From Anaerolineae bacterium (lineage in GTDB: Bacteria > Pseudomonadota > Alphaproteobacteria > DSM-16000 > Inquilinaceae): 64,000 nt of DNA. Location of the stretch: contig JANQQD010000255.1 of assembly GCA_028285185.1 (NCBI GenBank), positions 1-64,000 on the forward strand, read 5' to 3'. A model generated the notes under the pieces. It saw only the letters and a list, made by a program, of their open reading frames with translations, made no database searches and was not told the origin of the DNA. The position numbers and the translations under genes were made by a program. Shown here in pieces: positions 27,033-46,928 of the stretch (its first letter is position 1; each line of letters begins with the position of its first letter).

Positions 27033-27527
27033 TCAATCTCTTTTGAGCGTAACTTTCATGCCTTGCTTATGCTGTGTGCACCACAGCATAAGCGATCCTT
27101 CAAAGTTGTCTTTGACCTCTATTCTGGTCATCTCGACCGGATCCCCAGTAACCCCTGGGAGAATAGCTCCAAACTTTGAATCACCATCACCTAATTCGAC
27201 GACGATCTGTGTATTATTCTCGCCATCTCCAAGTTTTCTAATCTTCGCAGGATTCTCCGTGTCGGTTTCACCTATACCGTGTTGAATAAAATGCGCTTGG
27301 CGAAACACGATGATATCTCCGGGTTCCACGGAAACTTCAACGTGTTGCCCCGCATCGTCAGGCTGACCGTTGGCGTCGACCTGGGTACAGCGATCGCATT
27401 CAGCTTCCCACTTTGAGAACCCGGTAGCGTCAACCAATATTTCTTCAGCCAAAAGCGGCGTCGAGGCAGAGGCCGCCGAAACAAAGCCAAGCAAAACGGC
27501 AGCCAGCATACTGGGACAAACTTTCAT
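27033..27527 (-). CDS. Secreted cupredoxin-like copper protein
   Basis: A 164-residue protein with a signal peptide (residues 1 to about 28, ending near TPLLAEE). Its C-terminal segment LMLWCTQHKQGMKV is a type 1 copper loop with Cys150, His153 and Met157. The upstream histidine ligand is His83 or His79 in QAHFIQHGIG. It should carry single electrons in the periplasm. The start has GGAGGGG upstream. It lies 74 bases downstream of the multicopper oxidase on the same strand, so the two probably work as donor and acceptor. Confidence 0.82.
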   Translation of the reverse strand: MKVCPSMLAAVLLGFVSAASASTPLLAEEILVDATGFSKWEAECDRCTQVDANGQPDDAGQHVEVSVEPGDIIVFRQAHFIQHGIGETDTENPAKIRKLGDGENNTQIVVELGDGDSKFGAILPGVTGDPVEMTRIEVKDNFEGSLMLWCTQHKQGMKVTLKRD

Positions 27528-27601: not shown

Positions 27602-30016
27602 TCATAAGCCCTGGTCTTTTGGATCCCACACTTCTATGGGCGCCATCAGACCGCTGTCTTCATGCTTGAGAATATGGCAGTGGTAAACGAAGCGACCCAC
27701 CTGTGCATTGTCGACAAAGCTCATCATTACGTAGACAGGGCTACTTACTTCCTCGCGACCTGGAGGTACTGTTACGCTGAATGGTGGCATTGGGATCGTA
27801 TCGTGCCACTCAACTATCGAATTGATTGTTTCGCCTTCGGCAAACTCTGCCCTGCCAAGATTTGAAACTGATCTGCGTTGAGACGATTCAGGTTCATAAA
27901 ACTTATAGTCTGGCCCATCGCAATTGGTAACGCCATCACAGACGCTCGATACCGGAGGGGGGACAATGCCGTGACGGTTAAGATCATCGATGGTCGCCAA
28001 ACGAAACTTCATCTGGTGGATATGAAAATTATGCAAATCGGCGGTGGGGTTAGAAAGTTCCCATAGTTGTGGGCTCGCGTCCGCACTTTTGTCCAGCCGT
28101 ATACAAGTATGCAGCAGGTCAGAATCCCCCCCGTCCCATTTAATAGAATGATCGTCGTTGAGATAGGCCTCGAAAGGCGCATTAATTGTCAAAGGATCTC
28201 CATTTTCGTCTTTAACGACAGATCCATTCCTCATGATAGAAGTGACGATCTTCCATTCAGCCATAATTTTGGGATCATCATTCTTTGTAAATTCAACTCT
28301 TCTATACTCACCGTTGCGCAGGTCGCGCATGCAGCCGGGCGGAAGAGGCCGACTAACTCTATCTGCGCTGTCCGCCGGCAACAAACCAGCAACGACCGGT
28401 TCAGGTTCAGCGATTGATGCATTCAACGCAATCAAGACCGGGTCTCTTTTAGTCTCTTTGAAGGTGATACGCGCCAGCTGAATTTCCGGCCACCCATCCG
28501 ACTCCGGGTTAATACTAATCCATTCATCCCCTGGAGCCCCAATGCGCTGCGGAGGGATTGATCCAGTAAGCAGTTTTTTCGTTCGCAGGACAAATGCGGT
28601 GTCTTTGGCTGGATCGATCTCCCGCCGGTCGATATAGATCTCAACACGTGAGGCCGGCATGAGAAGCAAGTCAGGAACTCGATAAGAAGGTACGGAAATC
28701 TGCTCTCCGCCGTCTGCGGCGGGCTGGGGTTTAGCAGGGACAACCCCATCGACGCTCAGGATCGTCATCTTCTTGCGGACGAATTCACCATTGGCTGGAT
28801 CCGAAGCTTCCTCGTCATAGAGTTCCAGCCAGTAGGCGAAATTGGGGCTTAAGTTGCCCAGTCTCAGCAAGACCCCGGTCTTGGTTTCGTCCACTTCGAT
28901 TGTCGGGAATTTCTGGCCATTGATCGTGAAAAGCCAGAGCTTGTCTGGATCGGCCGCGCTTTGATCTCCGTTCAGGTCAGGCTGGCAAAACCCCTTGCGC
29001 AATCCTGTATTGCGGGTATCGAACGTGACCCCGTCCTGACCCACGACGCCGCAGACGCGACCCTGCCCGAAGTTTTGGCCATCGGGATCGGGAGCCCAGC
29101 CGCCTTCATCATTTCGTTTGAGCGATATATCGCGCAGGAGCGCATACTTCACGAGAGTGTTTCTGCGAAGTTCCGCTGTTTTTTCTTCGCATTCAACGAA
29201 ACTTAGTTCTTCGCAATCTGCCCTCAGGTTCGCATCTCGGCGTCCCACCGAGAGCAGCCCCGCCATGCCGCCCATCACCTGGTTCGAAGAAATCCCGTGA
29301 AGGTGGGAATGATACCAGTTCAGCCCTGGGGGATGGGAGATTCTTCCCGCACCTTCCAGAACCGCCGCATTGAGCTCCTCAAATCCCGGGATCGGCACGG
29401 TGAACGTGTGCTCTTGCTGCCTTTCCAGACAGCTGTAGATATTGTCGCCGGTGCCCCAGCGCGCTGAATCAGGCGGGCCTCCATGTAGGTCTTCGATTTC
29501 GCAATGTCCGGGACGAGCAGAAGTCGCGTTGCACGTGGTGACAATCCCGCCGTGGAAGTAGTGCAAATTGGTCGGATTGGAAGCCAGCGGAGGCGTTGGA
29601 TGAACCTCGTCAGGCTCGCAATGATGCGGGTGTTTGGGCTCGACGAGTGGTTTGTCCAGCGCGTTGGTCAAAGTAACCTCGACCGTATCACCTGCCCGGG
29701 CTTCGACGACGGGCGGCAGGTAGGTCCCATAATTCTCCGTCTTTATTGAATGGCCACCAATAGTTATTTCTTTGGTTTGAGCCTTCAGATTGATTTTTAC
29801 AATCTTGCGCTCTTCATCATTATTGTCCCTGCCGCTATTTGCGACCTCACAACCAAATGGGTTGTTATTAGGTATTGGCTCAAAAGAGGAGCAAATTGGC
29901 GGATCCTTAAACTCAATTATACCCGCTTGCGGTAACAAATCTTGCGCATCGCTTGCGCTCACCGTGAAGCTTGCGACCAATATCCCTGCACATACGAAGT
30001 TCGAGAATCTATCCAT
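27602..30016 (-). CDS. Large secreted multicopper oxidase
   Basis: An 804-residue multicopper oxidase with a signal peptide (MDRFSNFVCAGILVASFTV, then SASDAQ). All four copper motifs are present: LHYFHGG (about 151-157), NWYHSHLHG (about 234-241), HNFHIHQMKF and YHCHILKHEDSGLM, with the type 1 ligands Cys780, His785 and Met791. It couples one-electron oxidation of a substrate to four-electron reduction of oxygen. It is longer than common laccases (about 500 residues), with extra cysteine-rich and loop insertions, more like bilirubin-oxidase or phenoxazinone-synthase relatives. The start at 30016 is chosen for its signal peptide and a GTGAGG upstream; 30094 would add 26 unrelated residues. Confidence 0.92.
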   Translation of the reverse strand: MDRFSNFVCAGILVASFTVSASDAQDLLPQAGIIEFKDPPICSSFEPIPNNNPFGCEVANSGRDNNDEERKIVKINLKAQTKEITIGGHSIKTENYGTYLPPVVEARAGDTVEVTLTNALDKPLVEPKHPHHCEPDEVHPTPPLASNPTNLHYFHGGIVTTCNATSARPGHCEIEDLHGGPPDSARWGTGDNIYSCLERQQEHTFTVPIPGFEELNAAVLEGAGRISHPPGLNWYHSHLHGISSNQVMGGMAGLLSVGRRDANLRADCEELSFVECEEKTAELRRNTLVKYALLRDISLKRNDEGGWAPDPDGQNFGQGRVCGVVGQDGVTFDTRNTGLRKGFCQPDLNGDQSAADPDKLWLFTINGQKFPTIEVDETKTGVLLRLGNLSPNFAYWLELYDEEASDPANGEFVRKKMTILSVDGVVPAKPQPAADGGEQISVPSYRVPDLLLMPASRVEIYIDRREIDPAKDTAFVLRTKKLLTGSIPPQRIGAPGDEWISINPESDGWPEIQLARITFKETKRDPVLIALNASIAEPEPVVAGLLPADSADRVSRPLPPGCMRDLRNGEYRRVEFTKNDDPKIMAEWKIVTSIMRNGSVVKDENGDPLTINAPFEAYLNDDHSIKWDGGDSDLLHTCIRLDKSADASPQLWELSNPTADLHNFHIHQMKFRLATIDDLNRHGIVPPPVSSVCDGVTNCDGPDYKFYEPESSQRRSVSNLGRAEFAEGETINSIVEWHDTIPMPPFSVTVPPGREEVSSPVYVMMSFVDNAQVGRFVYHCHILKHEDSGLMAPIEVWDPKDQGL

Positions 30017-30187
30017 AAACCTCACCCCCGTTTGTATTCGAGTGCTGCGCCCAAGGGGTAATGACTGCCGAGCAAAAGGCAGAGCTCTGCTCAACTTTTC
30101 CTAGTATATGCTAACGCCGTTGGCTCGCGATCTCAACAAGCAGTGTTTTGCAAGGATGAGACTATGGCGCTTGGCGCATCGCCCGGA

Positions 30188-31267
30188 TCAGGCGTCCGCC
30201 AGGATCGGCCCCCTTATCCCCTCAAAGTGCATCCGTAAGGCTGGCCGCTCGGTCGTGCGCCGCGGGTCTATCTGGGAGAGGGCTTGCCGCATCTCGTGAA
30301 TTTCGCCCGACCAGGCATCGGGCACCTGGATCGAACCGTAGTATCGCAGACAATGGGTCAGATGCGACGAGAACGCAAAGTCGTATCGGTTAGCAACATG
30401 GCCGAGAATGGCCGCCGCGCTGCCGCCCTCGGCCAGAGCGTTGAGCGCGCCGACCGCGAGACACACAGACCGGAGCCCTTGGCCCGTGCCATCGCCCGAG
30501 ATCGGATCGAAGCTCACTGCCCGATCGCCGGCCGGAAGCGCTGCCGCGCTTGCCGGAGGCGGCCCAAGGCGCGGCGCGATGGCGGTGTGATGCGGCGGCT
30601 CGGTTTCCAGCGATCCAAGCAATGGCGCGAGATGTGCAGACAGCGTACCGCCTGGCGCGTGCCGAAGCCGCTTGGCCAAGCGGGAAAGATCGAGGCGCGC
30701 CTCCGGGGTCGCAAGCTGAACCGTCATACGGTCGCAGCTTGTGGGCAAAAGGAACATCCAGAACCCGTCGCCCGCAAGCGTTTCGCTCTGGTGTGACAGC
30801 CGCGGTTCAAGCGGCAGCGCTGGCCAGACCGCCATAGTGCGCTTTCCGGCCGTGATCTGACAGGCCTCGGGCAAAGCGGGACCGCGGGCATCGATCAGGT
30901 AGGTACCCGTGTCGCTGGGCACGTCTGCAATGATCTCGACCCCGCTGAGGCATGTCTCGAGCCCAGCGGCGAGCTCGGCAGCGTCGAGGCTGAGAGCCGC
31001 GATCTCAATAACATCGGCCGCGGGACCCGACCACGCGACACGGCGCTGGGACAGCCTATGCGTCGGGACGAATTCTTGCACCGGCTTGCCCCAAATGTCA
31101 GCGAACATCGCCTCGGTCTCAGCCGGCAAGGCAATGGCGCGGCTTTGCCTTGCGCAGGATGCCACCAACCGCACTGACCAGCCGCCATCGGCTAACAGCT
31201 TGGCGGCGGTTAGCCCGGCCGGGCCCGCGCCCAGCACGGTGATATCGCGAGGGCGGCTCTGGCTCAA
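30188..31267 (-). CDS. FAD-dependent monooxygenase, LodB/QhpG-like
   Basis: A 359-residue flavoprotein. The FAD-binding fold is ITVLGAGPAGLTAAKLLA at the N-terminus and the second FAD motif is GDRAVSFDPISGDGTGQGL. This pattern matches the LodB/QhpG and tryptophan-halogenase-like group. LodB and QhpG are required to build CTQ in LodA and in quinohemoprotein amine dehydrogenase, where QhpG hydroxylates the precursor tryptophan. The start overlaps the stop of the LodA-C/ferritin gene by four bases (ATGA). It is the last of four overlapping genes, so a role in maturing the product of that operon is the simplest reading. Confidence 0.82.
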   Translation of the reverse strand: MSQSRPRDITVLGAGPAGLTAAKLLADGGWSVRLVASCARQSRAIALPAETEAMFADIWGKPVQEFVPTHRLSQRRVAWSGPAADVIEIAALSLDAAELAAGLETCLSGVEIIADVPSDTGTYLIDARGPALPEACQITAGKRTMAVWPALPLEPRLSHQSETLAGDGFWMFLLPTSCDRMTVQLATPEARLDLSRLAKRLRHAPGGTLSAHLAPLLGSLETEPPHHTAIAPRLGPPPASAAALPAGDRAVSFDPISGDGTGQGLRSVCLAVGALNALAEGGSAAAILGHVANRYDFAFSSHLTHCLRYYGSIQVPDAWSGEIHEMRQALSQIDPRRTTERPALRMHFEGIRGPILADA

Positions 31268-33336
31268 ACGCCGCCGCCCATAACCTCGAGAAACGCCCGG
31301 CGGATGCTCGCCAGAGCGTCGCTTGAGCGCTCGGCCCGCGCGCGCAGCTCGGCATTGCCCGAAGCTAGCGCCTCGGTATTAAGCGTATCGAGCGGCTGGG
31401 TTGCGTTGGCCATTACTGCGGCCAGTCCGCCAGCCGCTGCGTCAGGCGCCGGCGCCCGGGCCACCTCAATACCTGGGCCTGTCGCGGGGCTTGGCCCGGC
31501 GGTGAAAATCCCCAGATTCACATCGCCCGCCAAGGTCGGCGGGGTGAAGAGCGGCGCGCCGCCGGCCGCGATGAGCGCGCGGATCTCGATATCCATGCTG
31601 TCGACCATTGCGATCCGGGTTGCTTCCAGAAGCCGCCCATGCTCGCTATCTCCGCGCCCGAAAACCACGAGAAGCAGGTTCAGGATCACCTCATAACTGC
31701 GGTCGACGCGCAGCTCGAACGCTTTGCCGGCGCTTGTCACGGCAAGCGGCGCAGGGTTTGATGCGGTTCGCAGATAGCTTTCATCGGGCGGCTCAGGCAA
31801 CAGCTGGCGGACACGCTGGAAACGGTGGAAATGGTCGTAACCTTCATCAATGATCAACTTGATCAGATGCAGCACGCGGTCTTTGATCGCATCGCTGATC
31901 TCGCCGCTTTTCTCGATGCTAAGGTAAAGCCGCGTATACATCCCGTCGACAGTGTCCGAGGCCACATCCGGGTCCACATCCTTGCTGCTGCGTTCGACAG
32001 TGATGAACCAATCGATCTGGTCGCGGGTCGCGGCGGTAAGCGCGAATGTATGAGGCAGGAAGCGGTTATTGCCGTCTTTGTCTTGGGTCTTGGCCGCTCG
32101 TGCCATCACCGGTGTCTCACCTAAAAGCACAAGGATTTCGTTCACCCAGCGGAAGTGGCGCATCTCGTCGATTGCGACGCCGAGGATAGTGCTGGCGGCT
32201 TCGTAAAGGCGAATCGCGGCGGTCTCATCCTGCGGCGGCGGCGTGGCGGGCGCGTTGATCGAGTAATAGGCGTAGAGATATTCGACCATCAGCGCGTGCT
32301 CGATCCCGGCAAGATAGGTCAACCGGTCGATGATGGTCGGGCGGTCGGGGAAAAGCTCGCTGTCGGGAAGGGTTTCCGGGCTACGCTTGGTGAACCGGTC
32401 GGTTTCACGGTCGTCGATCACGACGGGCAGGATTTCCCAGCCGTTGATCAGCTCCGCATGGTTCATCTGGCGCGGCACCCGCTCGGAAGGCGGCTCGGAC
32501 GTGGTCGCGGGATGTCCGCCTCGCCAAAGCCCCTGCCGGACCACGGGCGGATGGGTCGGCGGCTCGGGCGCAATCTCGCCGCTGCGCACCCGCTGGAAAT
32601 TGTAGATCTGCGGGCCCTCGGGGTCGACGGCGACCATATCGGGCTTGTTCGAGGCCCAGTACCAGCAGCCGCAATCGGTGAAATCGTATTGCCAGGGCGA
32701 ACACAGCGAACGCGTCAGATCACCGGGCTCATACATGTCGGGATCGATTACGCCATCTATCAAATAGGCGCTGCGGGTGCCGAAAATCACCGAAATCGCC
32801 GCCTGGCCCGGTACCGGGATCGAGCTGCTTTGCCCGGTGTTCAGTGCCGCAATGATTGCGCTCTGCTGCGCCATCGGGATCGGGGTGATATCGGGTCCAA
32901 GGACGATAGCGACGGGTCCCGGCTCGAACTCGCGGATGATCTGCCAAATGGCGCTGCCGGGAGGATTTTCGGCGCTGGCCGACATACGTATGGTCCACTG
33001 CAGCGTCGGACCGGCGTTTTCGGGCGCCTCGAGATCGGGAATGATACCACCCACCGCCAGCACCCGCAGCCCTGCGGTGAAATCCGCCTCGGCGATCGGA
33101 AAGCCGCGCGTAGGGTCATAGTCGCGCAACCAGCCGCCGGTGCCGGCATGCAGCTCGATCAAAAGCCCGTCGATAAATCGTTTTTCCAGGTTCCGGTGAT
33201 CGAATTCGAGGCCGGGAAAGGTGTTTTCGACCGTCGCGTCGGGCCGGGTGGTCACCGGATTGCCACGCACCGCCACATAGGAATGCGCGGTCTGGTTCAA
33301 CGGCATGATTTTTTGCGATTTGAGCGCGTCAGACAT
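31264..33336 (-). CDS. LodA C-terminal-like domain with CTQ-type motif fused to a ferritin-like domain
   Basis: A 690-residue two-part protein. Residues about 35-260 resemble the C-terminal half of LodA: FPGLEFDHRNL matches FHPGIEVTWPFR of the full-length homologue at 38323-40245. The cofactor region CSPWQYDFTDCGCWYWASN matches its PWQTDEASC and FWGARVPN. Asp218, Cys222 and Trp227 are candidate CTQ residues. Residues about 330-590 form a VioB/RebD-like ferritin domain with acidic and His ligands in AGIEHALMVEYLYAYY and IDEMRHF. No signal peptide is seen. The ATG at 33336 overlaps the radical SAM gene by eight bases and has AAGGGAAA upstream; 33666 would add residues antisense-like to that gene. 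The missing N-terminal LodA half is encoded at 34663-36150. Confidence 0.75.
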   Translation of the reverse strand: MSDALKSQKIMPLNQTAHSYVAVRGNPVTTRPDATVENTFPGLEFDHRNLEKRFIDGLLIELHAGTGGWLRDYDPTRGFPIAEADFTAGLRVLAVGGIIPDLEAPENAGPTLQWTIRMSASAENPPGSAIWQIIREFEPGPVAIVLGPDITPIPMAQQSAIIAALNTGQSSSIPVPGQAAISVIFGTRSAYLIDGVIDPDMYEPGDLTRSLCSPWQYDFTDCGCWYWASNKPDMVAVDPEGPQIYNFQRVRSGEIAPEPPTHPPVVRQGLWRGGHPATTSEPPSERVPRQMNHAELINGWEILPVVIDDRETDRFTKRSPETLPDSELFPDRPTIIDRLTYLAGIEHALMVEYLYAYYSINAPATPPPQDETAAIRLYEAASTILGVAIDEMRHFRWVNEILVLLGETPVMARAAKTQDKDGNNRFLPHTFALTAATRDQIDWFITVERSSKDVDPDVASDTVDGMYTRLYLSIEKSGEISDAIKDRVLHLIKLIIDEGYDHFHRFQRVRQLLPEPPDESYLRTASNPAPLAVTSAGKAFELRVDRSYEVILNLLLVVFGRGDSEHGRLLEATRIAMVDSMDIEIRALIAAGGAPLFTPPTLAGDVNLGIFTAGPSPATGPGIEVARAPAPDAAAGGLAAVMANATQPLDTLNTEALASGNAELRARAERSSDALASIRRAFLEVMGGGV

Positions 33337-34666
33337 CGGGCTTTCCCTTTGAATTGGAGGGGCGTCGGGTAAAGAAATCGGGTCGGGCATGTTGCAACTC
33401 GGCATAGGCCGAGAGACAGAAGTCGAGCCAGCCACGGATGTAGTCGCAGCCGATCCGGCCACGATTTTTGACTTCGTGATAGCAGCCTCCGCCGCAGAGA
33501 TAGCGCGCCCAGCAGCTCTTGCAGGGCTCTTGCCGGTCGACATGGGCGGCAGCGAGATGTGCGGTGCGGCGGCCATAGTCGGCGCCGTTTGCAAGATCGC
33601 CAAAGGCGAAATCCGGGTCGTCAACCAGCCGATGACAGCCATAAAGCGCGCCCTCCGCGCTGACACTCAGATAGCCCGCGCCGGCCCCGCAGGGATAAGG
33701 CATATGCGCGCCGCGATGGATTTGCTGCATTGCGGTTTGAAAATTGGAGAACGGCAGGACGACACCTTTCAACGCAGCCGCTTTGGCGCGGCGGCCGCAA
33801 ACGATCATCTCGTCGAGGAAGCGGGCGAGTTCGTCCGGGCAATAGGCCGGCGCCCCGGGCGGTGCAGCAATGACCGGGCCAAAGCCCACCTCGTCGAGAT
33901 CGAGGCTCAGGAGGTGATCAAGCATCTCGGGCAAGGCGCCAGTAAAGGGTGTCACCGTTGCGCGCGCCGACAGATGCAGGGGCCGGGTGGCCGCGAGCCG
34001 CGCAAGCCCCGTGATGGCGGCGTCATAGGCGCTGCCCCGCCCGTTCCGCCGCCGCCGCTGGCCGTCATTGCTGGCGCGCGTTCCGTCGAGCGAGACAGCC
34101 ACCGCGAAAGGATAGTTGGCAAGCAGCGCTGCATCCTCATCTCCGATCAGCGTCGCATTGGTGGTGATGGAGAAGCGCACCCGATGCCCGGCCCGGTCGG
34201 CGGCACGCGCCGCATAGCGGGTGGCGGCGTGGACGAGGCGCTGGTTGATGAAAGGCTCGCCACCCATGAACCCCACTAGCAGATCGCTCTCAGGCGGCGC
34301 ATCGGCGATTAGCCGGTCGATCGCGTCCTCAGCCACACGTTCAGGCATGAGCCGAGCCGCACCGCCGAAGCGGCCTTCATCGGCATAGCAGTAGCTACAG
34401 GACAGATTGCAGGCCTGCGCCACGTTGAGCGAAAGCGATTTAACCGGCGGCGGCGCGGCCGCTTCGGAGCCGATGTAGCGCCGGGTCCCGCCGATCAGAC
34501 CGGCTAGCGCTTCGGGAACTCGGCCTGCATCGATGTCAGTAGCGACGGCCTGTGCGGTGTCACGGTCGAGATCGAAGATGCGGCTGCCGTCAGCGAGATA
34601 GAGGTGGTCGCCGCGACCGCTGGAAAACACCCGCGCCTCGGCTTGAATGTCGAACCGGGCGTTCAT
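33329..34666 (-). CDS. Radical SAM/SPASM peptide maturase
   Basis: A 445-residue radical SAM enzyme. The SAM-cluster motif is ACNLSCSYCYADEG (Cys86, Cys90, Cys93), followed by the GGEPF SAM-binding motif. The C-terminal SPASM region binds auxiliary clusters (YPCGAGAGYLSVSAEGALYG and later CKSCWARYLCGGGCYHE). Such enzymes modify peptides or proteins, for example QhpD, which makes thioether crosslinks in the CTQ subunit of quinohemoprotein amine dehydrogenase, and anaerobic sulfatase maturases. It overlaps both neighbours (ATGA with the LodA-N gene, eight bases with the LodA-C/ferritin gene), so it almost certainly acts on one of them. No short precursor-peptide gene is seen nearby. Confidence 0.9.
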   Translation of the reverse strand: MNARFDIQAEARVFSSGRGDHLYLADGSRIFDLDRDTAQAVATDIDAGRVPEALAGLIGGTRRYIGSEAAAPPPVKSLSLNVAQACNLSCSYCYADEGRFGGAARLMPERVAEDAIDRLIADAPPESDLLVGFMGGEPFINQRLVHAATRYAARAADRAGHRVRFSITTNATLIGDEDAALLANYPFAVAVSLDGTRASNDGQRRRRNGRGSAYDAAITGLARLAATRPLHLSARATVTPFTGALPEMLDHLLSLDLDEVGFGPVIAAPPGAPAYCPDELARFLDEMIVCGRRAKAAALKGVVLPFSNFQTAMQQIHRGAHMPYPCGAGAGYLSVSAEGALYGCHRLVDDPDFAFGDLANGADYGRRTAHLAAAHVDRQEPCKSCWARYLCGGGCYHEVKNRGRIGCDYIRGWLDFCLSAYAELQHARPDFFTRRPSNSKGKPDV

Positions 34667-36150
34667 CCGATGTGGCCGCTTGTGCGCAATCCTTCGACCC
34701 AGCGCTGCAGCATTTCGTATTGCCGGCGCGTGATGTTCATGGCCCGCCCGTGCGAGCCGCGCATCAGCGGCGGCATGCGGCGGTCGAAGCGCTGAAACTC
34801 ATCGAGCGGCTTGCGGATCCAGGTGTCGATCAGCTGAGGATCCTCGCGCAGCCGGTCGCGCAGATATTCCAGCGCAGTGTAGCGGCGATGCTTGCGGCGG
34901 CCGCGGTACGAGACCGGAAGGGCATCGGATCGGTGGGCGGTGGGGGCGATCTCGTCGCGGGTTGCCCAAATCGTGTTGAGCGCCAACTCGTCGCGGTCCC
35001 CGGTCGCGCGCGGCAGGCGAACCTCTTCGTCTTGCGTTGCCGGATGCAACCGATCCAACTCGGTGTCCTTGTTCATCAGATCCGAGGTTTCGAGCGCCCG
35101 TTCGAACAGATCGCGCACCAGATCTTCCAACTCGTCGAGATCGGCCTCTCGGATGCCAGCCCGGTCGACCCGGTCGGCGAGCCCATCCTGCAGAGATGTC
35201 AGATGCCGTCGGTCGGGCGCGAAATCGGGCGGCCCTACGGCGACGCGGGCAACAGCCGTAAGGCCGCCGACGCTGCACTCGATGATCCCGTCGGTGACAT
35301 CGTCGACGAGGCCGAGACTGACATTCGTACTTCTCAAATCGCCGAAGAACGCGTGGATGCCACCGGGGGTCTTTCGCGTGTCTCCCGGGATGAAGGGTGG
35401 GCCGACTCGTTGCCCTAGCACGTAGTTTGGCCAAGCGGCCCGGGGATTGAGAATCAGCCGGCCCGGCAAATCGAACCCAGCCCATTCGCCGGGTCTGGGC
35501 TCTGCCGCGATGCGCTGCAAGAGATCGGTCGGCCCATAGACCAGACCTTTCGGCGGATAGAATCGGAGCCGGATTTCGGGCAATTCGTCGTTCGGCTGCG
35601 CTACCTGCACCTCGCCGACCGGGATCGACTCACCATGCGGCAGAAGGCGGGAGGATTCGTCACCCTCGGTTGCGGTCAAGGCAAGCCGGACGCGGGTTGT
35701 GGTGCCGGCCGGTATTTGCTCTTCACACGTAAGCCGGTCTCCATCGCTCAGCGTGAATTCATAGGCTTTGAGATTGGCCAGCCGGATCTGCCAGCGGACC
35801 TGGGACAGGTCGAGGCCCGAGTCTTCGAGCACGAGTTTCGTGATCGGCCCGCTGCTGGTCGTGCCGTTGATGGTCCAGCGGCCATGCAGTTCGAAATAGG
35901 GGCAGACGGGGCGGAAATGCCAGGTTCCGTTGCCGTCCTCTTCCTTGAAGATCACCTCATCCGCAGGTTCCACAATACTGGGATTGCCGTTCGCGTCCAG
36001 CTCCACCGACGGGGCGGCGCGCAAGGTAGTCTTACCGGTGCCACCAGGGCCATCATCGGTGGGGCCCCAGGTGAAGTTCGGGCATGGAGTTTCGCTGGAG
36101 CCCAGTCGGGCTATGGCAATCGGCGGCGTCAGCCAGATGGCGTCAATCAC
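34663..36150 (-). CDS. Separate LodA N-terminal-like domain protein
   Basis: A 495-residue protein matching only the N-terminal half of LodA-type oxidases. Pairs with the full-length homologue at 38323-40245 are IWLTPPIAIARLGSS with VAIHPAIGVARVGNA, WQIRLANLKAYEF with WRVEVANLKAGWY, DDVTDGIIECSV with DDICDGPVRARV, and VGPPDFAP with VAPPNYGP. At the end, MPPLMRGS then RRQYEMLQRWVEGL matches LPPIYGDA then GLQYEHLQNWADGT. It stops there, just before the cofactor half, which is found in the next-but-one gene. The GTG at 36150 follows GGGGGGAG; the GTG at 36204 would put that Shine-Dalgarno sequence inside the gene. There is no signal peptide. Confidence 0.8.
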   Translation of the reverse strand: MIDAIWLTPPIAIARLGSSETPCPNFTWGPTDDGPGGTGKTTLRAAPSVELDANGNPSIVEPADEVIFKEEDGNGTWHFRPVCPYFELHGRWTINGTTSSGPITKLVLEDSGLDLSQVRWQIRLANLKAYEFTLSDGDRLTCEEQIPAGTTTRVRLALTATEGDESSRLLPHGESIPVGEVQVAQPNDELPEIRLRFYPPKGLVYGPTDLLQRIAAEPRPGEWAGFDLPGRLILNPRAAWPNYVLGQRVGPPFIPGDTRKTPGGIHAFFGDLRSTNVSLGLVDDVTDGIIECSVGGLTAVARVAVGPPDFAPDRRHLTSLQDGLADRVDRAGIREADLDELEDLVRDLFERALETSDLMNKDTELDRLHPATQDEEVRLPRATGDRDELALNTIWATRDEIAPTAHRSDALPVSYRGRRKHRRYTALEYLRDRLREDPQLIDTWIRKPLDEFQRFDRRMPPLMRGSHGRAMNITRRQYEMLQRWVEGLRTSGHIG

Positions 36151-38322: not shown

Positions 38323-40245
38323 ATGGACGCTTCGCCGATTGTGTCTGTCGCCATTCATCCCGCCATCGGTGTTGCCCGGGTCGGCAACGCTCGAGAAGAA
38401 TGGTTTCTGGCCGCCGATCTTCGCGGCAGCGCGCCCGCTGATCCGGACGGCTATCGCGACGCAGACGGGCGGATTAAGCGCCAGGTTTCCAGGTTCCGGA
38501 TCTATGCCACCCATGCCTCGGGCGAGGTGCGCGAGCTGACTCTGGATGAGGCCGAGATCGAATGGCGGGTCGAGGTCGCCAATCTGAAAGCGGGCTGGTA
38601 CCAGTTCAATTACCCGCTCGATCTGCCGGTCGCGGGGATTGAAGCGCCAGAACGGCGGAACGCGGCCTTTACCGGCGGGGATCGCGGCAGGCTGGATATC
38701 AGGCCGAGCGAAAAGGCAATTTCGGGCCGGAACGAGGCCGGGGCGCCGTACCGGTTCGACGATGGCGAGTTCTTCGGCAAACGGGTCTATCTCGGAGAAC
38801 TGCGGACCGATTCGGCGGGACGGCTCCTGGTCTTCGGCGGCCGTGGCGCAAGCGCGCCGCTGACCCCCGGCACCGCGCCCCGGACGTTCGCCAATAACGA
38901 TGGCTGGCACGATGATATCTGCGATGGGCCGGTGCGGGCGCGGGTGCGGGTCGGAGGCGAAACCTTCGAAGCGGAGCCCGCACATGTCGTCGTCGCGCCG
39001 CCGAACTACGGGCCGGGCCTTTTCGGCGTGGTCACGATGGATGACGTGTTGCAGGATCTCTACGTCCGCGAAGGCTGGGTCGCCGCGCCCGAGGTTACCC
39101 GCTTCACGCGCGACATCTGGCCGGTCTTCGACCGGATTAGCGGGCATCAATGGGTGAATGACGGGTTCTTGCCGATCGTGGGCGTGGGTTCGCCACTCGA
39201 TGCGCGCAGCCCGGAGATCATCGCGAAGCTGCAGGAAGGCTCAAGCGCGAACGCCGGGTTTCGGGCTCAGGTGCATGCGCTCTTCCGGCAGCCCGGTGAC
39301 GAGCGGCCCGAAGCGCTGCCGCCCATTTATGGCGATGCGCTGAGTGACCGGCGGCCGGATGGGACACTTCTCGATCCGACCCGGCAGGAGTTGTTTCTGA
39401 CCGGCCTGCAATATGAGCATTTGCAGAATTGGGCGGACGGAACCTTCGAGGCCGATTGGCAGGGCATGCCGGAATTCCCGGATTTCGATGCGCTGCCGCC
39501 GAAGGCGCAGACCGAAGAGCTGGACCGGGCAGGCATGTATGAATGCCTCGGTGGGCCGTTTCATCCTGGCATCGAGGTCACCTGGCCGTTCCGGTTGGCG
39601 ATCATGTGGAAAGCGCCCTACCGGTTACGGGCGCTGCCCGAAGGCACCGCCGTCCGCCAGGATTACGGCGAGACGCTTTCGGTCGAAACCGCCCTGGCGG
39701 CTGACGGGCCGCATGGCGCTTCAGGCCCCGGTTCGCTGACCCGTTGGCTGGGTGTGCCCTGGCAGACAGATGAGGCATCGTGCAATTCAGGCCTGCTATA
39801 CAGCCCCGAGCTTTACCTTTCGAGCCCGAGCTTTTGGGGTGCGCGCGTGCCGAACCAGGTGTTGTCGCAAGAGGCATTTGCGCTTGCCAGCTCGGGCAGG
39901 TTGAGCCCCGAAGAGGCCGACAGGCATTTTGCCAAGCGGCATCTGTGGCTCCGCGATATCAATGGCAGAGGCTATTTTGAGCGGATCGACGCGATGGTGA
40001 CGCGCTGGTGGAAACTGGGCTTGGTAGCGGCCAAGACCCCGCCCGAAGGCTCGGACCTGCCCGATCCGACCTTTGTCGAAACCGGCCGCCAGCCATCGGC
40101 GACGGCAGATCCGTCGCTTGAACTGTTGCTGGCGGTGCTCGCGCTGGAGGACAGCGATGGCGCGGCGGAACTTGGGGCCGGACCGGGCGGGACGCCGCCG
40201 GAGGAGAGGCGCGGCTACAAGACCTTCTCGCGCGGCGAGATTTGA
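38323..40245 (+). CDS. LodA-like CTQ-dependent amino acid or amine oxidase
   Basis: A 640-residue full-length member of the LodA/GoxA family, quinoproteins that oxidise L-lysine, glycine or other amines, releasing aldehyde, ammonia and hydrogen peroxide. The N-terminal hallmark is AIHPAIGVARVGNA. The cofactor region is VPWQTDEASCNSG with Asp483 and Cys487, followed by SFWGARVPNQVL with Trp505. These match the Asp, Cys and Trp that form cysteine tryptophylquinone in LodA. The C-terminal helix region (HFAKRHLWLRDINGRGYFE) is also typical. There is no signal peptide, as in other LodA proteins. It overlaps the flavoprotein gene by one base (TGATG). The substrate cannot be predicted. Confidence 0.88.
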   Translation: MDASPIVSVAIHPAIGVARVGNAREEWFLAADLRGSAPADPDGYRDADGRIKRQVSRFRIYATHASGEVRELTLDEAEIEWRVEVANLKAGWYQFNYPLDLPVAGIEAPERRNAAFTGGDRGRLDIRPSEKAISGRNEAGAPYRFDDGEFFGKRVYLGELRTDSAGRLLVFGGRGASAPLTPGTAPRTFANNDGWHDDICDGPVRARVRVGGETFEAEPAHVVVAPPNYGPGLFGVVTMDDVLQDLYVREGWVAAPEVTRFTRDIWPVFDRISGHQWVNDGFLPIVGVGSPLDARSPEIIAKLQEGSSANAGFRAQVHALFRQPGDERPEALPPIYGDALSDRRPDGTLLDPTRQELFLTGLQYEHLQNWADGTFEADWQGMPEFPDFDALPPKAQTEELDRAGMYECLGGPFHPGIEVTWPFRLAIMWKAPYRLRALPEGTAVRQDYGETLSVETALAADGPHGASGPGSLTRWLGVPWQTDEASCNSGLLYSPELYLSSPSFWGARVPNQVLSQEAFALASSGRLSPEEADRHFAKRHLWLRDINGRGYFERIDAMVTRWWKLGLVAAKTPPEGSDLPDPTFVETGRQPSATADPSLELLLAVLALEDSDGAAELGAGPGGTPPEERRGYKTFSRGEI

Positions 40246-41273
40246 TGGAGACGCAAAAGCGGTTCGAGGTCTTGGTCGCAGGGCGAGGCCCTGCGGGCCT
40301 TGCGGCATCCATCGCATTGGCCGAGCGGGGCATCGAAGTGGTGAGCCTTGCGCCGGTCGGGGCGTCTCCGGCCTTGGCGCGTGCCGAGATGCTGTCCCTC
40401 GCAGTCGAGGCCATCCTGGCGCGGCTCGGGCTCGGCGACGTGCTGGCGCGAGCGGTGAGGCTTCGGGGCGTGGAGCGCCACTGGAACAGAGCGCGGCCCG
40501 AGCTGCAGGACGGCCTGTCGCCTGACGCCGCGGGCCCCGGGTGGAGCGTCGACCGTGCCGACCTGCAAGAGGCGCTGACGACGCGCGCCGCGGCGTTGGG
40601 CGTGACGGAGGCGCAGGGCCAAATTCGCGGCGTCGCCGGCCAACCTGGGCGTTGGCGTGTAACGCTCCCGAATGGCGGCAGTCTTGACGCACGATTCCTG
40701 GTCGATGCTACGGGCCGGCCCGCGGCACTGGCGCGCAGGCTGGGCGCGAAACTACGGTTCGGCCTGCCGCTTCTTGCCCGGGTCTGGACCGCAACGGCGC
40801 CGGCACCGTCACGATTGGTGGCCAAAGCCGAGCCGGACGGGTGGCGCTACACCCTACCCCATCCGGCGGGCGGCGCCTCGGTTGGCTGGCTGACTCGCCC
40901 CGGCCTGGTCCGCGACGCGCCGCCCAGCTTTGCCTCGACCCGTGCACAGGACGCGCGGAGCATGCAGCTCAGCCCGGTGGCCGGGCCCGGTTGGCTCGCT
41001 GCCGGAGATTCCGCCGCCGCCTTCGACCCGATCGCCTCACAGGGTCTCTTCAACGCGCTCTCCGGTGGTTTTTTTGCCGGCAATGCGGCGGCGGATGCGG
41101 TGCGGGGGGCTCCAGAAAACATCACGGTCTACCGGCTCCTGACAGAGCGCACTGCGGCGCGGACGCATCATCTGATCCCCAGCCAATATGCCGCCAGCGG
41201 ATACCGGACCTCCTTCTGGGCCGAGCGCGCGCAGCAAACAATTCTGAGCAAAGGAGTGACTTATGGACTTTAG
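40245..41273 (+). CDS. LodB-like FAD-dependent maturation protein
   Basis: A 342-residue flavoprotein. The FAD fold is FEVLVAGRGPAGLAASIALA, where the usual GxGxxG reads GRGPAG, and the second FAD motif is GDSAAAFDPIASQGLFNALS. LodB proteins are needed to form CTQ in their cognate LodA, usually from the adjacent gene, exactly as here: the start overlaps the LodA stop by one base and the gene ends 11 bases inside the next one. It is a distant paralogue of the flavoprotein at 30188-31267; each probably serves its own LodA-type partner. Confidence 0.87.
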   Translation: METQKRFEVLVAGRGPAGLAASIALAERGIEVVSLAPVGASPALARAEMLSLAVEAILARLGLGDVLARAVRLRGVERHWNRARPELQDGLSPDAAGPGWSVDRADLQEALTTRAAALGVTEAQGQIRGVAGQPGRWRVTLPNGGSLDARFLVDATGRPAALARRLGAKLRFGLPLLARVWTATAPAPSRLVAKAEPDGWRYTLPHPAGGASVGWLTRPGLVRDAPPSFASTRAQDARSMQLSPVAGPGWLAAGDSAAAFDPIASQGLFNALSGGFFAGNAAADAVRGAPENITVYRLLTERTAARTHHLIPSQYAASGYRTSFWAERAQQTILSKGVTYGL

Positions 41274-42810
41274 CCCTCCGGCAAATCAGGACGATCTGTC
41301 CGACCGACCGATCGACCGCGACGCGCTTCTGACGCTTTGGAACCGGCAGAGTACACCGGCGGACGAGCGCTCGTTTTACATGGGCGATTATGTAACGGCG
41401 GCTGCACGAAACCCGAACTATGTCGATCCGCGCCAGGTGACGCCGAGCGGCACCCCAAGCCCCGTGCCCTGGAACGGATTTCCCCGGCTCTTGTCGCGGT
41501 TTTACAATGACCAAGCCTCCGAGGCGGCACGCGCCCAGGCCGACGCAATAGCTGATGTGCCGACGCCCTGGCTCTATTGGGTCGCACCTGGGCAACCGCT
41601 CGGTGCCGGGCCGCCGCATCAACTGCCCTTCTTCGCCCAGCGACTTGGCGTGCCGGAGGCCTTTCTGCGCGCCGTGGCTGGACCGCTTCATGCTGTCAAT
41701 GCGGATGGTACGATCGGCGACCCGATCCCACAACTCCGCCGTCAGCAGGACGAGTATCTCGAATGGCATGCCGACCGGAACGCGGATGGCACGATCCGTC
41801 GGATCTGCTTCACCGCGGAGCCGCCCGATTATTGGGAGGCATTGGCCGAGGTGGCGCCTGACCGGGTGCTGGCGCTGTATCAGCAACATGTGAACCCATC
41901 GATTACTCGCGACGCTCTGTTTTATCCCGACCAGGTGGCCGCGCCCGGTTTTGATGCGAACGGCAATTTCCTGTGGCGGATCGTCCCCTGGCTGGGAGGG
42001 ACCTATGACCCGCTCAACCGCTGGACGACGACGGACGGGATCATGCATCTGACCCATAGCGCGAACACGCTTGGCGCCGAGGTCAATCTGGCAGGAGATG
42101 CCAGCGTACCGCGCTCGGTCGACAGCCAGCCGCGTACGCCCGGTCAGGATCCGGCGCCGCAGGTGCTGCGCATCGCCTGCGGTGCCTACGGCGGGATCAA
42201 CCGGTCTAGCGACCCGAATATCGGGCTTATCGTCGGCGATCTGGTGAAGGACGGGAACCGCATTACGCTGACCGATCCGGTGGGGCTCTATATCGGCAAG
42301 GTCGATCTTGCCGGTCTCCGCGGTCCGAATGGCGAGGTCCTGGAAACTGTCGCGGGTCGAGTGGTGCGCGGCTCCGATGACCCGTTCGAGCCGCGAATAC
42401 TGCGCTATGAGGTCGAGCTGCCGTCGGGAACGGCCTTCACGCTGTCCGATTGCAGCTTCGACAATCGGCCCTTGCTTCGGGGCGGCCAGATCGCTCGGGA
42501 GACGACCATCCGGCTTTACGCGAATGTCTATCCAAACTCGGCCACAGCCGCGGAAGAGGCCTGCAGCGCCGGGGTGTGCCGCAGCACCGAGAATGACCAG
42601 CTCTTTCTGATCGGCGACCCAACGCAATGCCCGCCGCCCAGCCACCCGTTCTGGCTGCTTGCTACCCCATACGAGGGCGATACTGGCGGGGCGGCGCTAG
42701 GTGTGGGCGAGCTGGAGGGTGCCGCGATCGACATCACGGACCGGGTCTCGGCCGAGGAAGCCCGCATGCCGGAGAAAAACGTCAATCCCTACAGGCTTCT
42801 GGGTTTCTGA
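41263..42810 (+). CDS. Hypothetical protein of the LodA operon
   Basis: A 515-residue protein of unknown family. It has no signal peptide or membrane helix. The middle contains RIACGAYGGINRSSDPNIG, reminiscent of a small beta domain. Cysteines are grouped near the C-terminus (EEACSAGVC, then DPTQC). The start has AAGGAG upstream and overlaps the flavoprotein end by 11 bases, and the stop overlaps the DyP start by one base (TGATG). Tight coupling says it belongs to the LodA system, perhaps as a structural or acceptor subunit, but nothing in the sequence proves this. Confidence 0.6.
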   Translation: MDFSPPANQDDLSDRPIDRDALLTLWNRQSTPADERSFYMGDYVTAAARNPNYVDPRQVTPSGTPSPVPWNGFPRLLSRFYNDQASEAARAQADAIADVPTPWLYWVAPGQPLGAGPPHQLPFFAQRLGVPEAFLRAVAGPLHAVNADGTIGDPIPQLRRQQDEYLEWHADRNADGTIRRICFTAEPPDYWEALAEVAPDRVLALYQQHVNPSITRDALFYPDQVAAPGFDANGNFLWRIVPWLGGTYDPLNRWTTTDGIMHLTHSANTLGAEVNLAGDASVPRSVDSQPRTPGQDPAPQVLRIACGAYGGINRSSDPNIGLIVGDLVKDGNRITLTDPVGLYIGKVDLAGLRGPNGEVLETVAGRVVRGSDDPFEPRILRYEVELPSGTAFTLSDCSFDNRPLLRGGQIARETTIRLYANVYPNSATAAEEACSAGVCRSTENDQLFLIGDPTQCPPPSHPFWLLATPYEGDTGGAALGVGELEGAAIDITDRVSAEEARMPEKNVNPYRLLGF

Positions 42811-44354
42811 TGGAACTAAGCGCCGAACCGGTCTTGGAGATCGACGACATCCAAGGGCATATCCTCGTCGGGTTCCGCGGACCGTATCAGGAGATCGTGG
42901 GGTTCCGGCTTGACCCGGCAGCTCTCGGACCTGCGCGGACGGCGCTGTTGCCCTGGGCTAACAGGGTGACGTCGACCCGTACGGCGCTGGCACGGCGCAA
43001 CGCGGCGAAAGAGGCCGAGGCCGCCGGAGCGCCGCTGCCTGCGTCGGATTCGGTGATGATGGCGATGGCGTTGACCGCAGAGGGGCTGTCATGCCTCAAC
43101 GCGGCGGCGCGGCCCGAGGATCCCGATTTCCTGGCCGGTGCAGCGCGTTCGGCGGCGACACTGAGCGACGTGACCGACCCCTCAAATGGCGTGCCGCTTG
43201 GCTGGGTGTATGGCGACGTTCCGGAGCGTATTCCCGATGTTTTGGTGATCTTCGGGGGCGACAGCGAAACGGCGGTGCGCGGAATGGCCGACACGTTGAT
43301 CGCTGATCTCGACAGACTGGCCACGATCGCGTTGCGCGACACCGGCGTGCGACTGCCCGAAGACAAGGAGCATTTCGGCTTTGTCGATGGTATCTCGCAG
43401 CCCGCACCGCGCGGCCGGATCGCAGAGGATACGGCGCTTGTGCACCGCGCGCTGCCTCCGGGCGACCCGATCGCGGGGCGCTTCGCGCGCCCGGGGCGCC
43501 CGCTGGTTTGGCCGGGGCAATATCTGTTCGGCGAGCCGACGCAGTTGGCCGACAGTCTCGCTCCCGGCCCCATCGCGGGTGGGGTGGGCACCGCGTTGAA
43601 AAACGGATCGCTACTGGTGCTGCGCCGGCTTCGGCAGGATGTGGCGGCATTTCAGCGCGGCATGGAGAACCTTGCGGCAAGTTTTGCCGGTCAGGGGCTG
43701 AGTGCCGATGCGGCGACCGTGGCCGCCTGGTGCGTGGGGCGCTGGTCGGACGGAACGCCGCTGGTTCTGTCGCCCGACGCGCCCGACCCGTCGATCGGTG
43801 GCAACATCCATCGGCGGAACGGGTTTCTCTTCAGCCAGGCCCTGGATTCCGCAGATTTGCGGTTACCGGACGGATCGGAGGTTCGATTTCCGGGATCGCC
43901 GGCCGATCTCTTCGGGCAGGCCTGCCCGTTCTTTGCCCATATCCGGCAGGTTAACCCGCGCGACGACCCGGTCGATTTCGGCGGCCACGGAATCACGCTG
44001 CAGGCGCAGATGCTGCGCCGCGGGATCCCTTACGGACCGGCCTGGACCGGCGCCGACGACGGGGTCGATCGCGGGTTGATTTTCATGGCCTATCAGACCT
44101 CGATCGCCAACCAGTTTCACCGGCTCATGAAACGCTGGGTGAATGACAATACGGCGCCGCTGTCACGTTCGGGGATCGACCCAGTGATTGGGGCGGATAA
44201 GTCGCCCGGGCGCGCGCTGGAGCGGAGGCATGCGGATGGACACTTTGCGCGGAGCCTGCTCAGGGGTAACTGGGTGACGGCGACTGGCGCGGTCTATGCG
44301 TTTACGCCGGGACTTTCCGCGCTGCGCCGGATGCTGACGGAACAGACATCCTGA
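42810..44354 (+). CDS. DyP-type heme peroxidase
   Basis: A 514-residue dye-decolorizing peroxidase. The catalytic GxxDG motif is GFVDG (Gly190-Gly194, Asp193 distal). The proximal heme histidine is in FFAHIRQVNPRDD. The opening IDDIQGHILVGFRG is typical of the longer DyP subgroup, and no Tat or Sec signal is seen. It uses hydrogen peroxide, the by-product of LodA-type oxidases, so it may remove peroxide or use it to oxidise a second substrate. The start overlaps the previous stop by one base. It is the last gene of the operon and of the cargo block. Confidence 0.92.
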   Translation: MELSAEPVLEIDDIQGHILVGFRGPYQEIVGFRLDPAALGPARTALLPWANRVTSTRTALARRNAAKEAEAAGAPLPASDSVMMAMALTAEGLSCLNAAARPEDPDFLAGAARSAATLSDVTDPSNGVPLGWVYGDVPERIPDVLVIFGGDSETAVRGMADTLIADLDRLATIALRDTGVRLPEDKEHFGFVDGISQPAPRGRIAEDTALVHRALPPGDPIAGRFARPGRPLVWPGQYLFGEPTQLADSLAPGPIAGGVGTALKNGSLLVLRRLRQDVAAFQRGMENLAASFAGQGLSADAATVAAWCVGRWSDGTPLVLSPDAPDPSIGGNIHRRNGFLFSQALDSADLRLPDGSEVRFPGSPADLFGQACPFFAHIRQVNPRDDPVDFGGHGITLQAQMLRRGIPYGPAWTGADDGVDRGLIFMAYQTSIANQFHRLMKRWVNDNTAPLSRSGIDPVIGADKSPGRALERRHADGHFARSLLRGNWVTATGAVYAFTPGLSALRRMLTEQTS

Positions 44355-45647: not shown

Positions 45648-46928
45648 TCACTCACGATAGGGCCTCAGCACCATGTCCTTGTTGACGATGATGCGGAGCG
45701 GCCAGCCAGGACGAATGGTGATGGTGGGCTGGATATTGAGGTTGCGCTCGGTGATGCGCTGGCCGACCTGATTGGCGCTATCTTGGGCGGACTCGCGGAT
45801 CGCCTCGACGAGATCGTCCTCTTCGTCGCCGAAGGTAAGCTCGGTGCCGACGCCGAGCAGCGTCGACAGCACGATGCCCTTGAGGAGGCGCCAAGTGTGG
45901 AAGTTCACCTCGTCCTCGAGCCCGGCATAGCCTGTGGTGTCGGTCGCCGGCAGGTTCTCGATCACGACCGACGAGCCGTCGGGCATGATGATCCGCTGCC
46001 AGACAACCAGCGCGCGCTCCTGGCCGAAGGCGACGACGCTGTCATAGGTGCCGATCACGCGGGAGCCTTGCGGGATCAGCAGATAGCGCCCCGACACGGT
46101 GTCGTAGACGTTCTCGGTCACTTGCGCGATGACGCGGCCCGGCAGATCGGAGTTGATGCCCGTCACGAGACTCGCGGAGATGACGGTTCCCGCCATGACT
46201 TGATAAGGCGAGGCCGGGTCCTGAAGCGTGTGCGGATTGTAGATGTCCGCGTCGACATCCTGGTTCAGGAAATCGAGCTTGCGGCCTTGCAGATTTTGGT
46301 CGCTCTGGAGATCGAGACCGAGCCCTTGGTCGGGCGTGTCCGCGCGGAGAACGTCGAAGGGATTGCGGTCGGGCGTCGCCGATACCTGCGTCGGGCTATC
46401 AGCTGGTTGGGCGCCGGTCGCGGTGCGGGAGGTGAGCTGAAAGAACACGCCGGCCTCGCGGCCCTGCTGCGCCAGGCGCGCTTGCCGGATGCGCTCGGCG
46501 CGCGCCGCGTCATCCTCCGGGCTTGGGCGAAACGGCAGATTGGGCGGCGGGCCGATCCCCAGATCCTGCTCGGCGCCGACGACGGCAGGGCCAATATCGC
46601 CGGGTAGTGGCGGCCCCAACTGCACCGGCGGCGGCAGGTCGCCATAGTCGCGCGGCAGCGCGTCCAGCCCCTCCGGCCTAGGTGCGTTCTCGGTTCGGAT
46701 CAGCTCGCGGCCGGTGTCGTCTCGGTCGAAGAGCCGCGGCGGATCGAGGGCGAAGATCGTCGCCCCGAAGAGCAACAGGAGTCCCGTCCCGGAGAGAACG
46801 ATCAGCACCCGTCGGTCAATTCGGGTCACCGGCCTGGGCTTGGCGCGCAGCGCCAGGTTCTCCGGATCGACTTTCGGGGTGGCCGGCGGCTCGGGACCCG
46901 ATGGCTCCTCTCGTCGCTCGTCCGTCAT
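45648..46928 (-). CDS. trbI: Type IV secretion protein TrbI (VirB10-like)
   Basis: A 426-residue VirB10-like protein. It has a short cytoplasmic part, one membrane helix at about 42-64 (RVLIVLSGTGLLLLFGATI), a proline-rich periplasmic stretch and the conserved C-terminal barrel domain (YQVMAGTVISASLVTGINSD, then NVYDTVSGRYLLIPQGSRV). It spans the envelope as part of the core channel for conjugative transfer. It overlaps trbG by four bases (ATGA). Confidence 0.95.
   Translation of the reverse strand: MTDERREEPSGPEPPATPKVDPENLALRAKPRPVTRIDRRVLIVLSGTGLLLLFGATIFALDPPRLFDRDDTGRELIRTENAPRPEGLDALPRDYGDLPPPVQLGPPLPGDIGPAVVGAEQDLGIGPPPNLPFRPSPEDDAARAERIRQARLAQQGREAGVFFQLTSRTATGAQPADSPTQVSATPDRNPFDVLRADTPDQGLGLDLQSDQNLQGRKLDFLNQDVDADIYNPHTLQDPASPYQVMAGTVISASLVTGINSDLPGRVIAQVTENVYDTVSGRYLLIPQGSRVIGTYDSVVAFGQERALVVWQRIIMPDGSSVVIENLPATDTTGYAGLEDEVNFHTWRLLKGIVLSTLLGVGTELTFGDEEDDLVEAIRESAQDSANQVGQRITERNLNIQPTITIRPGWPLRIIVNKDMVLRPYRE

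Follow-up and report, generated by a model that had tools for sequence, protein, structure and literature searches.

Gene content of the locus

Four overlapping genes lie on the minus strand at positions 30188-36150 of the window, the whole 64,000-nucleotide stretch of DNA that was analysed (Table 1). They overlap by 4, 8 and 4 bases in the ORF list, and both the open reading frames and their family assignments agree with the arrangement proposed in the first-pass annotation. The two halves of a LodA-like quinoprotein are encoded on either side of a radical SAM gene, the second half is fused to a ferritin-like domain, and a flavoprotein completes the set. The same window holds a full-length oxidase that served for comparison; judged by its profile matches (LodA_N 1.3e-68, LodA_C 2.2e-33 and GoxA 3.5e-116 with Pfam and NCBIfam models), it is a true homologue of GoxA/LodA, accompanied by a flavoprotein of its own.

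Table 1. Coordinates of the split quinoprotein genes, their sequence features and the comparison genes in the window.
Feature	Position	Strand	Remarks
N-half, LodA-like quinoprotein, 495 aa	34663..36150	-	GTG start; alternative start 36204
QhpD-like radical SAM/SPASM maturase, 445 aa	33329..34666	-	ATG start
LodA C-half with QhpC-like cofactor motif and PF12902 ferritin-like domain, 690 aa	31264..33336	-	ATG start
Cofactor motif in the C-half, C212-SPWQY-D218-FTD-C222-G-C224-WY-W227-ASNKP-D233	32638..32703	-	Alignment to LodA and QhpC
Di-metal ferritin-like domain; ligand candidates E346, E391, H394, E448, H502	31747..32364	-	Invariance
QhpG/LodB-like FAD monooxygenase, 359 aa	30188..31267	-	TTG start; QhpG/LodB profile matches
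Ordinary full-length GoxA/LodA-type oxidase; comparison protein, outside the split set	38323..40245	+	LodA_N/LodA_C/GoxA profiles
LodB/GoxB/QhpG-like flavoprotein, partner of the oxidase at 38323-40245	40242..41273	+	GoxB 1.4e-33, QhpG 1.1e-31

Homology of the two halves to LodA

As single proteins, the LodA halves score under the Pfam gathering scores. The N-half gene alone matches LodA_N weakly (0.006) and the C-half gene alone matches LodA_C at 6e-4, below the cut-off, while PDB and Pfam searches with single sequences of either half are too weak to decide. For this reason family profiles were used. With LodA proteins removed beforehand from its alignment, the N-half profile aligns to the LodA alignment over 358 columns (hhalign; 99.2% probability, E 7.7e-20) and matches the window's own LodA at E 1.9e-13 (hmmsearch). 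The C-half profile aligns further along the same LodA proteins (hhalign, E 5.8e-7); a plain profile search with it matched ordinary LodA proteins down to 1.3e-6, and in blind genome searches ordinary LodA-type proteins appeared at 4e-5 and probably at 1e-6. By these profile comparisons, the N-half and C-half are homologous to the two halves of LodA, in the correct order, as the first-pass annotation had claimed. In the window, two genes encode the domains that share one polypeptide in LodA and GoxA.

Both halves are found on one natural protein in 16 relatives. In one such fusion (L039) the ferritin domain is part of the protein as well, and a few other relatives fuse ferritin to the N-half; these combinations indicate that all three parts work in one complex. 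A natural fusion of 718 residues (L055), modelled with AlphaFold (pLDDT 82, pTM 0.89), retrieves 11 chains below 1e-3 from the PDB, all of them LodA or GoxA (E 5e-12 to 6e-10), which together with the fusions themselves favours the idea of a split enzyme. Since its superposition on LodA is loose (TM-scores 0.30-0.37), the model is read as support for kinship of fold and not for atomic detail, and confidence in the predicted cofactor motif region is low. This fusion was used to assess the LodA fold because the window C-half, modelled alone with its ferritin domain, found only ferritins and no LodA; it matches the ferritin-like protein 3hl1 (E 6e-6). Plasmid-collection rows were left out of the alignments behind the structure models.

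Recurrence and gene order

The locus is one member of a widespread family and no isolated case. In a protein search, the C-half or its ferritin domain was found in 20 plasmid records, and the ten plasmid neighbourhoods that were read, from hosts including Streptomyces, Nostoc, Rhizobium, Microvirga, Bradyrhizobium and Mycetohabitans, have identical core partners each time. When one genome was scanned for each species, 197 confirmed relatives emerged, of which 80 were fetched. The fetched loci come from Pseudomonadota, Actinomycetota, cyanobacteria, Acidobacteria, Planctomycetes, Bacteroidota, myxobacteria and other groups. N-half, C-half, radical SAM enzyme, flavoprotein and ferritin domain all fall within 6.5 kb in 77 of 90 loci, a recurrence across many phyla that excludes chance; several of the remaining loci stop at a contig edge. 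The system is sparse and not common, as none of 398 genomes sampled within the window's phylum added another full member. A scan of viral contigs with the C-half gave no match.

The commonest gene order is that of the window, N-half, radical SAM, C-half with ferritin, flavoprotein (28 loci), followed by ferritin, N-half, C-half, radical SAM, flavoprotein (15 loci) and ferritin, fused N- and C-halves, radical SAM, flavoprotein (12 loci). On the radical SAM tree these three architectures need six changes, compared with 33 when labels are shuffled. An intact paralogue about 2 kb away (38323-40245) could point to the split genes being a degraded remnant of this neighbouring LodA-like gene, left by frameshift or decay. 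However, identity to the paralogue is 24% over part of the N-half, the overlaps with the radical SAM gene between the halves are clean, and the commonest order recurs with an invariant motif. We give this explanation next to no credence, and recurrence rules out a pseudogene.

The cofactor motif and its putative maturases

The C-half contains the motif C-x-P-W-x2-D-x3-C-x-C-x-Y-W-A-x3-P-D, which is invariant in all 90 C domains that include the motif region. Because the genome-scan loci were chosen with motif fragments, this conservation is somewhat inflated; the ten plasmid loci were found without the motif, and all carry it. The second Cys of the motif and the Trp that follows the invariant Tyr align (hhalign) with C516 and W581, the residues of the cysteine tryptophylquinone (CTQ) of LodA, and both are conserved in 90/90 C domains. 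The other two Cys are absent from the ordinary LodA proteins inspected. Four residues separate Cys and Trp in the present system, compared with about 10-64 in LodA types.

The additional residues recall QhpC, the small subunit of quinohemoprotein amine dehydrogenase (QHNDH), whose corresponding stretch reads SLC27-QPMEA-D33-LYG-C37-SDP-C41-W-W43-PAQVP-D49. The order Cys/Asp/Cys/Cys/Trp/Asp is common to both, the spacing of C212, D218 and C222 is exactly that of C27, D33 and C37, and W227 and D233 are spaced as W43 and D49 (W-x5-D). The inner loop is shorter than in QhpC, with a C-C spacing of 2 against 4 and a C-W spacing of 5 against 6. In QhpC, C27 pairs with D33. As the whole-profile comparison of the C-half with QhpC is not significant (hhalign, 15% probability), the link between them rests on motif spacing, which suggests common descent. 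QhpD bonds three Cys of QhpC to Asp or Glu, among them C41 to D49; QhpG dihydroxylates W43, which then forms CTQ with C37 (PMC7876137).

Relatives of both maturases are encoded in the locus. The radical SAM protein matches Radical_SAM at 2.1e-16 (Pfam), and its best curated family is QhpD (TIGR03906; E 7.9e-78, 262 bits, under the equivalog cut-off of 453). Across the family, 27 of 27 radical SAM sequences tested match QhpD, and the CxxxCxxC motif and all seven SPASM cysteines are invariant among them. The nearest solved structure, 5wgg, is that of CteB, which forms sactionine bonds (PMC7876137). The flavoprotein is likewise closest to QhpG (90.6 bits, E 9.8e-26, cut-off 240), with LodB at 1e-4; the flavoproteins of the set are diverse, and all 25 sampled match QhpG. 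Eight ordinary LodA loci all encode a flavoprotein and none this radical SAM enzyme (0/8); one of the eight (L109) has a distant radical SAM protein (91 bits) on the opposite strand. In two QHNDH loci this radical SAM enzyme is present, at 333 and 324 bits. The additional residues and the gene for the radical SAM enzyme go together, and this is the strongest argument for a crosslinking step.

Alternatively, the radical SAM enzyme of a LodA-type quinone oxidase might install another modification, such as a bond to Tyr226 or a Cys-Trp bond, giving a cofactor other than ordinary CTQ. Y226 shows the same invariance as the Cys and Trp, the C-C spacing is not that of QhpC, and the window enzyme is also near the thioether maturases PapB (244 bits) and SCIFF (198 bits). 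This option is nevertheless considered unlikely: the C/D/C/W/D order and the key spacings are as in QhpC, the window protein scores highest with QhpD, a family that all the tested sequences match, and a QhpG-like flavoprotein accompanies the radical SAM enzyme.

RiPP maturases otherwise abound in the radical SAM family, and the C-half could be a RiPP-like precursor from which a modified short peptide is released, its resemblance to LodA being ancestral only. Against this reading, which we regard as very improbable, the motif lies within a large conserved domain, the annotated loci showed no protease or exporter as a regular partner, and the conservation of the N-half and the N+C fusions point to an enzyme.

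The ferritin-like domain

Downstream of the motif, the C-half protein matches PF12902 (6.7e-14, Pfam). Its five candidate ligands are invariant in 91/91 homologous ferritin domains, which makes a working di-metal site likely. VioB and RebD, proteins of the same Pfam family, work next to the amino-acid oxidases VioA and RebO, and by this analogy a role on the imine product is the preferred guess for the domain. While the ferritin-like domain is common to both systems, here it is fused or adjacent to a quinoprotein, and the match to the VioB model is negligible (0.049).

A ferritin-like gene also adjoins two of the eight ordinary LodA loci. In the ordinary LodA loci L110 and L112, which do not have this radical SAM gene, the order is ferritin, LodA, LodB, with ferritin directly before lodA. 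Fungal lodA genes have a ferritin neighbour as well (PMC4417212), so the domain is not specific to loci with the radical SAM enzyme, and the idea that it is unique to the split system was rejected. The first-pass annotation had described LodA as known with LodB only and the ferritin domain as an addition; the set as such holds, but a ferritin neighbour was already known for fungal lodA.

Comparison with known systems and proposed maturation

The system shares with LodA/GoxA and LodB/GoxB (PF17990 and PF18417) the homology of both halves, the aligned cofactor Cys and Trp, an adjacent flavoprotein maturase and, in some members, a PF12902 ferritin neighbour. It differs in that most members are split into two genes and in the addition of two invariant Cys, a QhpD-like radical SAM gene and, nearly always, the di-metal domain. 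With QHNDH (QhpABCDEFG) it has in common, besides the motif order, a QhpD-like radical SAM/SPASM enzyme and a QhpG-like monooxygenase, both here under the equivalog cut-offs. Unlike in QHNDH, the motif lies within a LodA-like C-half and there is no 9-kDa gamma subunit with a leader: PF08992, the gamma subunit family, has no match in the window's genome, nor does PF09099, the check for the alpha subunit, in a search run without a positive control. Diheme alpha subunit, QhpE protease and QhpF exporter were not seen as constant partners in the annotated loci. A survey of the LodA family reports flavoprotein neighbours and makes no mention of radical SAM enzymes (PMC4417212). The claim that no system with such a gene set has been described agrees with full-text searches of an open-access library of papers, which found no description.

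Taken together, the locus probably encodes a LodA-fold quinone amine or amino-acid oxidase of two polypeptides and a di-metal domain, with QHNDH-type maturation (probability roughly 0.7, from sequence comparison). The first-pass annotation was essentially right but did not notice the QhpC-like motif or how widespread the family is. In the proposed route, the QhpD-like radical SAM/SPASM enzyme would make Cys-Asp thioethers in the C-half; the likeliest pairs are C212-D218 and C224-D233, which would leave C222 unbonded beside W227. W227 would then be hydroxylated by the QhpG-like flavoprotein and bonded to C222, giving CTQ. The matured C-half is predicted to join the N-half in a LodA-like enzyme that converts O2 to H2O2 as it oxidises an amine. 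The di-metal domain would be a constant component of this complex and would most likely work on the imine product or in O2/H2O2 chemistry.

The best reading is a third type of cysteine-tryptophylquinone oxidase, with the fold of LodA and a maturation like that of QHNDH. We lean slightly towards the broader proposal of a third widespread tryptophylquinone class, in which a radical SAM enzyme would crosslink a large globular protein of LodA fold at the positions used in the QHNDH small subunit and a built-in di-metal domain would serve a second oxidation. LodA and QHNDH have one cofactor and seemingly unrelated routes to it. The present loci unite a LodA scaffold with QHNDH-type crosslink residues and QHNDH-type maturases, which makes the evolutionary relation of the routes testable. 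If the proposal is true, LodA and QHNDH would be joined as branches of one cofactor lineage, and radical SAM thioether chemistry would reach beyond small peptides to proteins of 300-750 residues. The confirmed loci of the single scan also constitute a large reservoir of uncharacterised oxidases.

Genomic surroundings

Positions 41263-44354 encode a 515 aa protein without any family, followed by a DyP-type peroxidase. This pair recurs near the system in four other loci (L005, L008, L031 and L086) and may be a functional partner. The presence of a DyP-type peroxidase near some loci (the window, L005, L008 and L031) fits an oxidase that produces H2O2.

On the plus strand, 25272-25772 matches a ferritin-like family at E 3.4e-8 over about 32 residues and is probably the remnant of another ferritin-like gene. 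On the minus strand, a VirB10/TrbI-like protein of type IV secretion, recognised by eye at 45648-46928, hints at an adjoining conjugative element. The G+C content is 52-56% between 22000 and 30000, compared with 60-67% around it, and this stretch is perhaps of separate origin. It holds a small protein (27033-27527) and a multicopper oxidase (27602-30094); a multicopper oxidase also adjoins the system in Mesorhizobium (L013).
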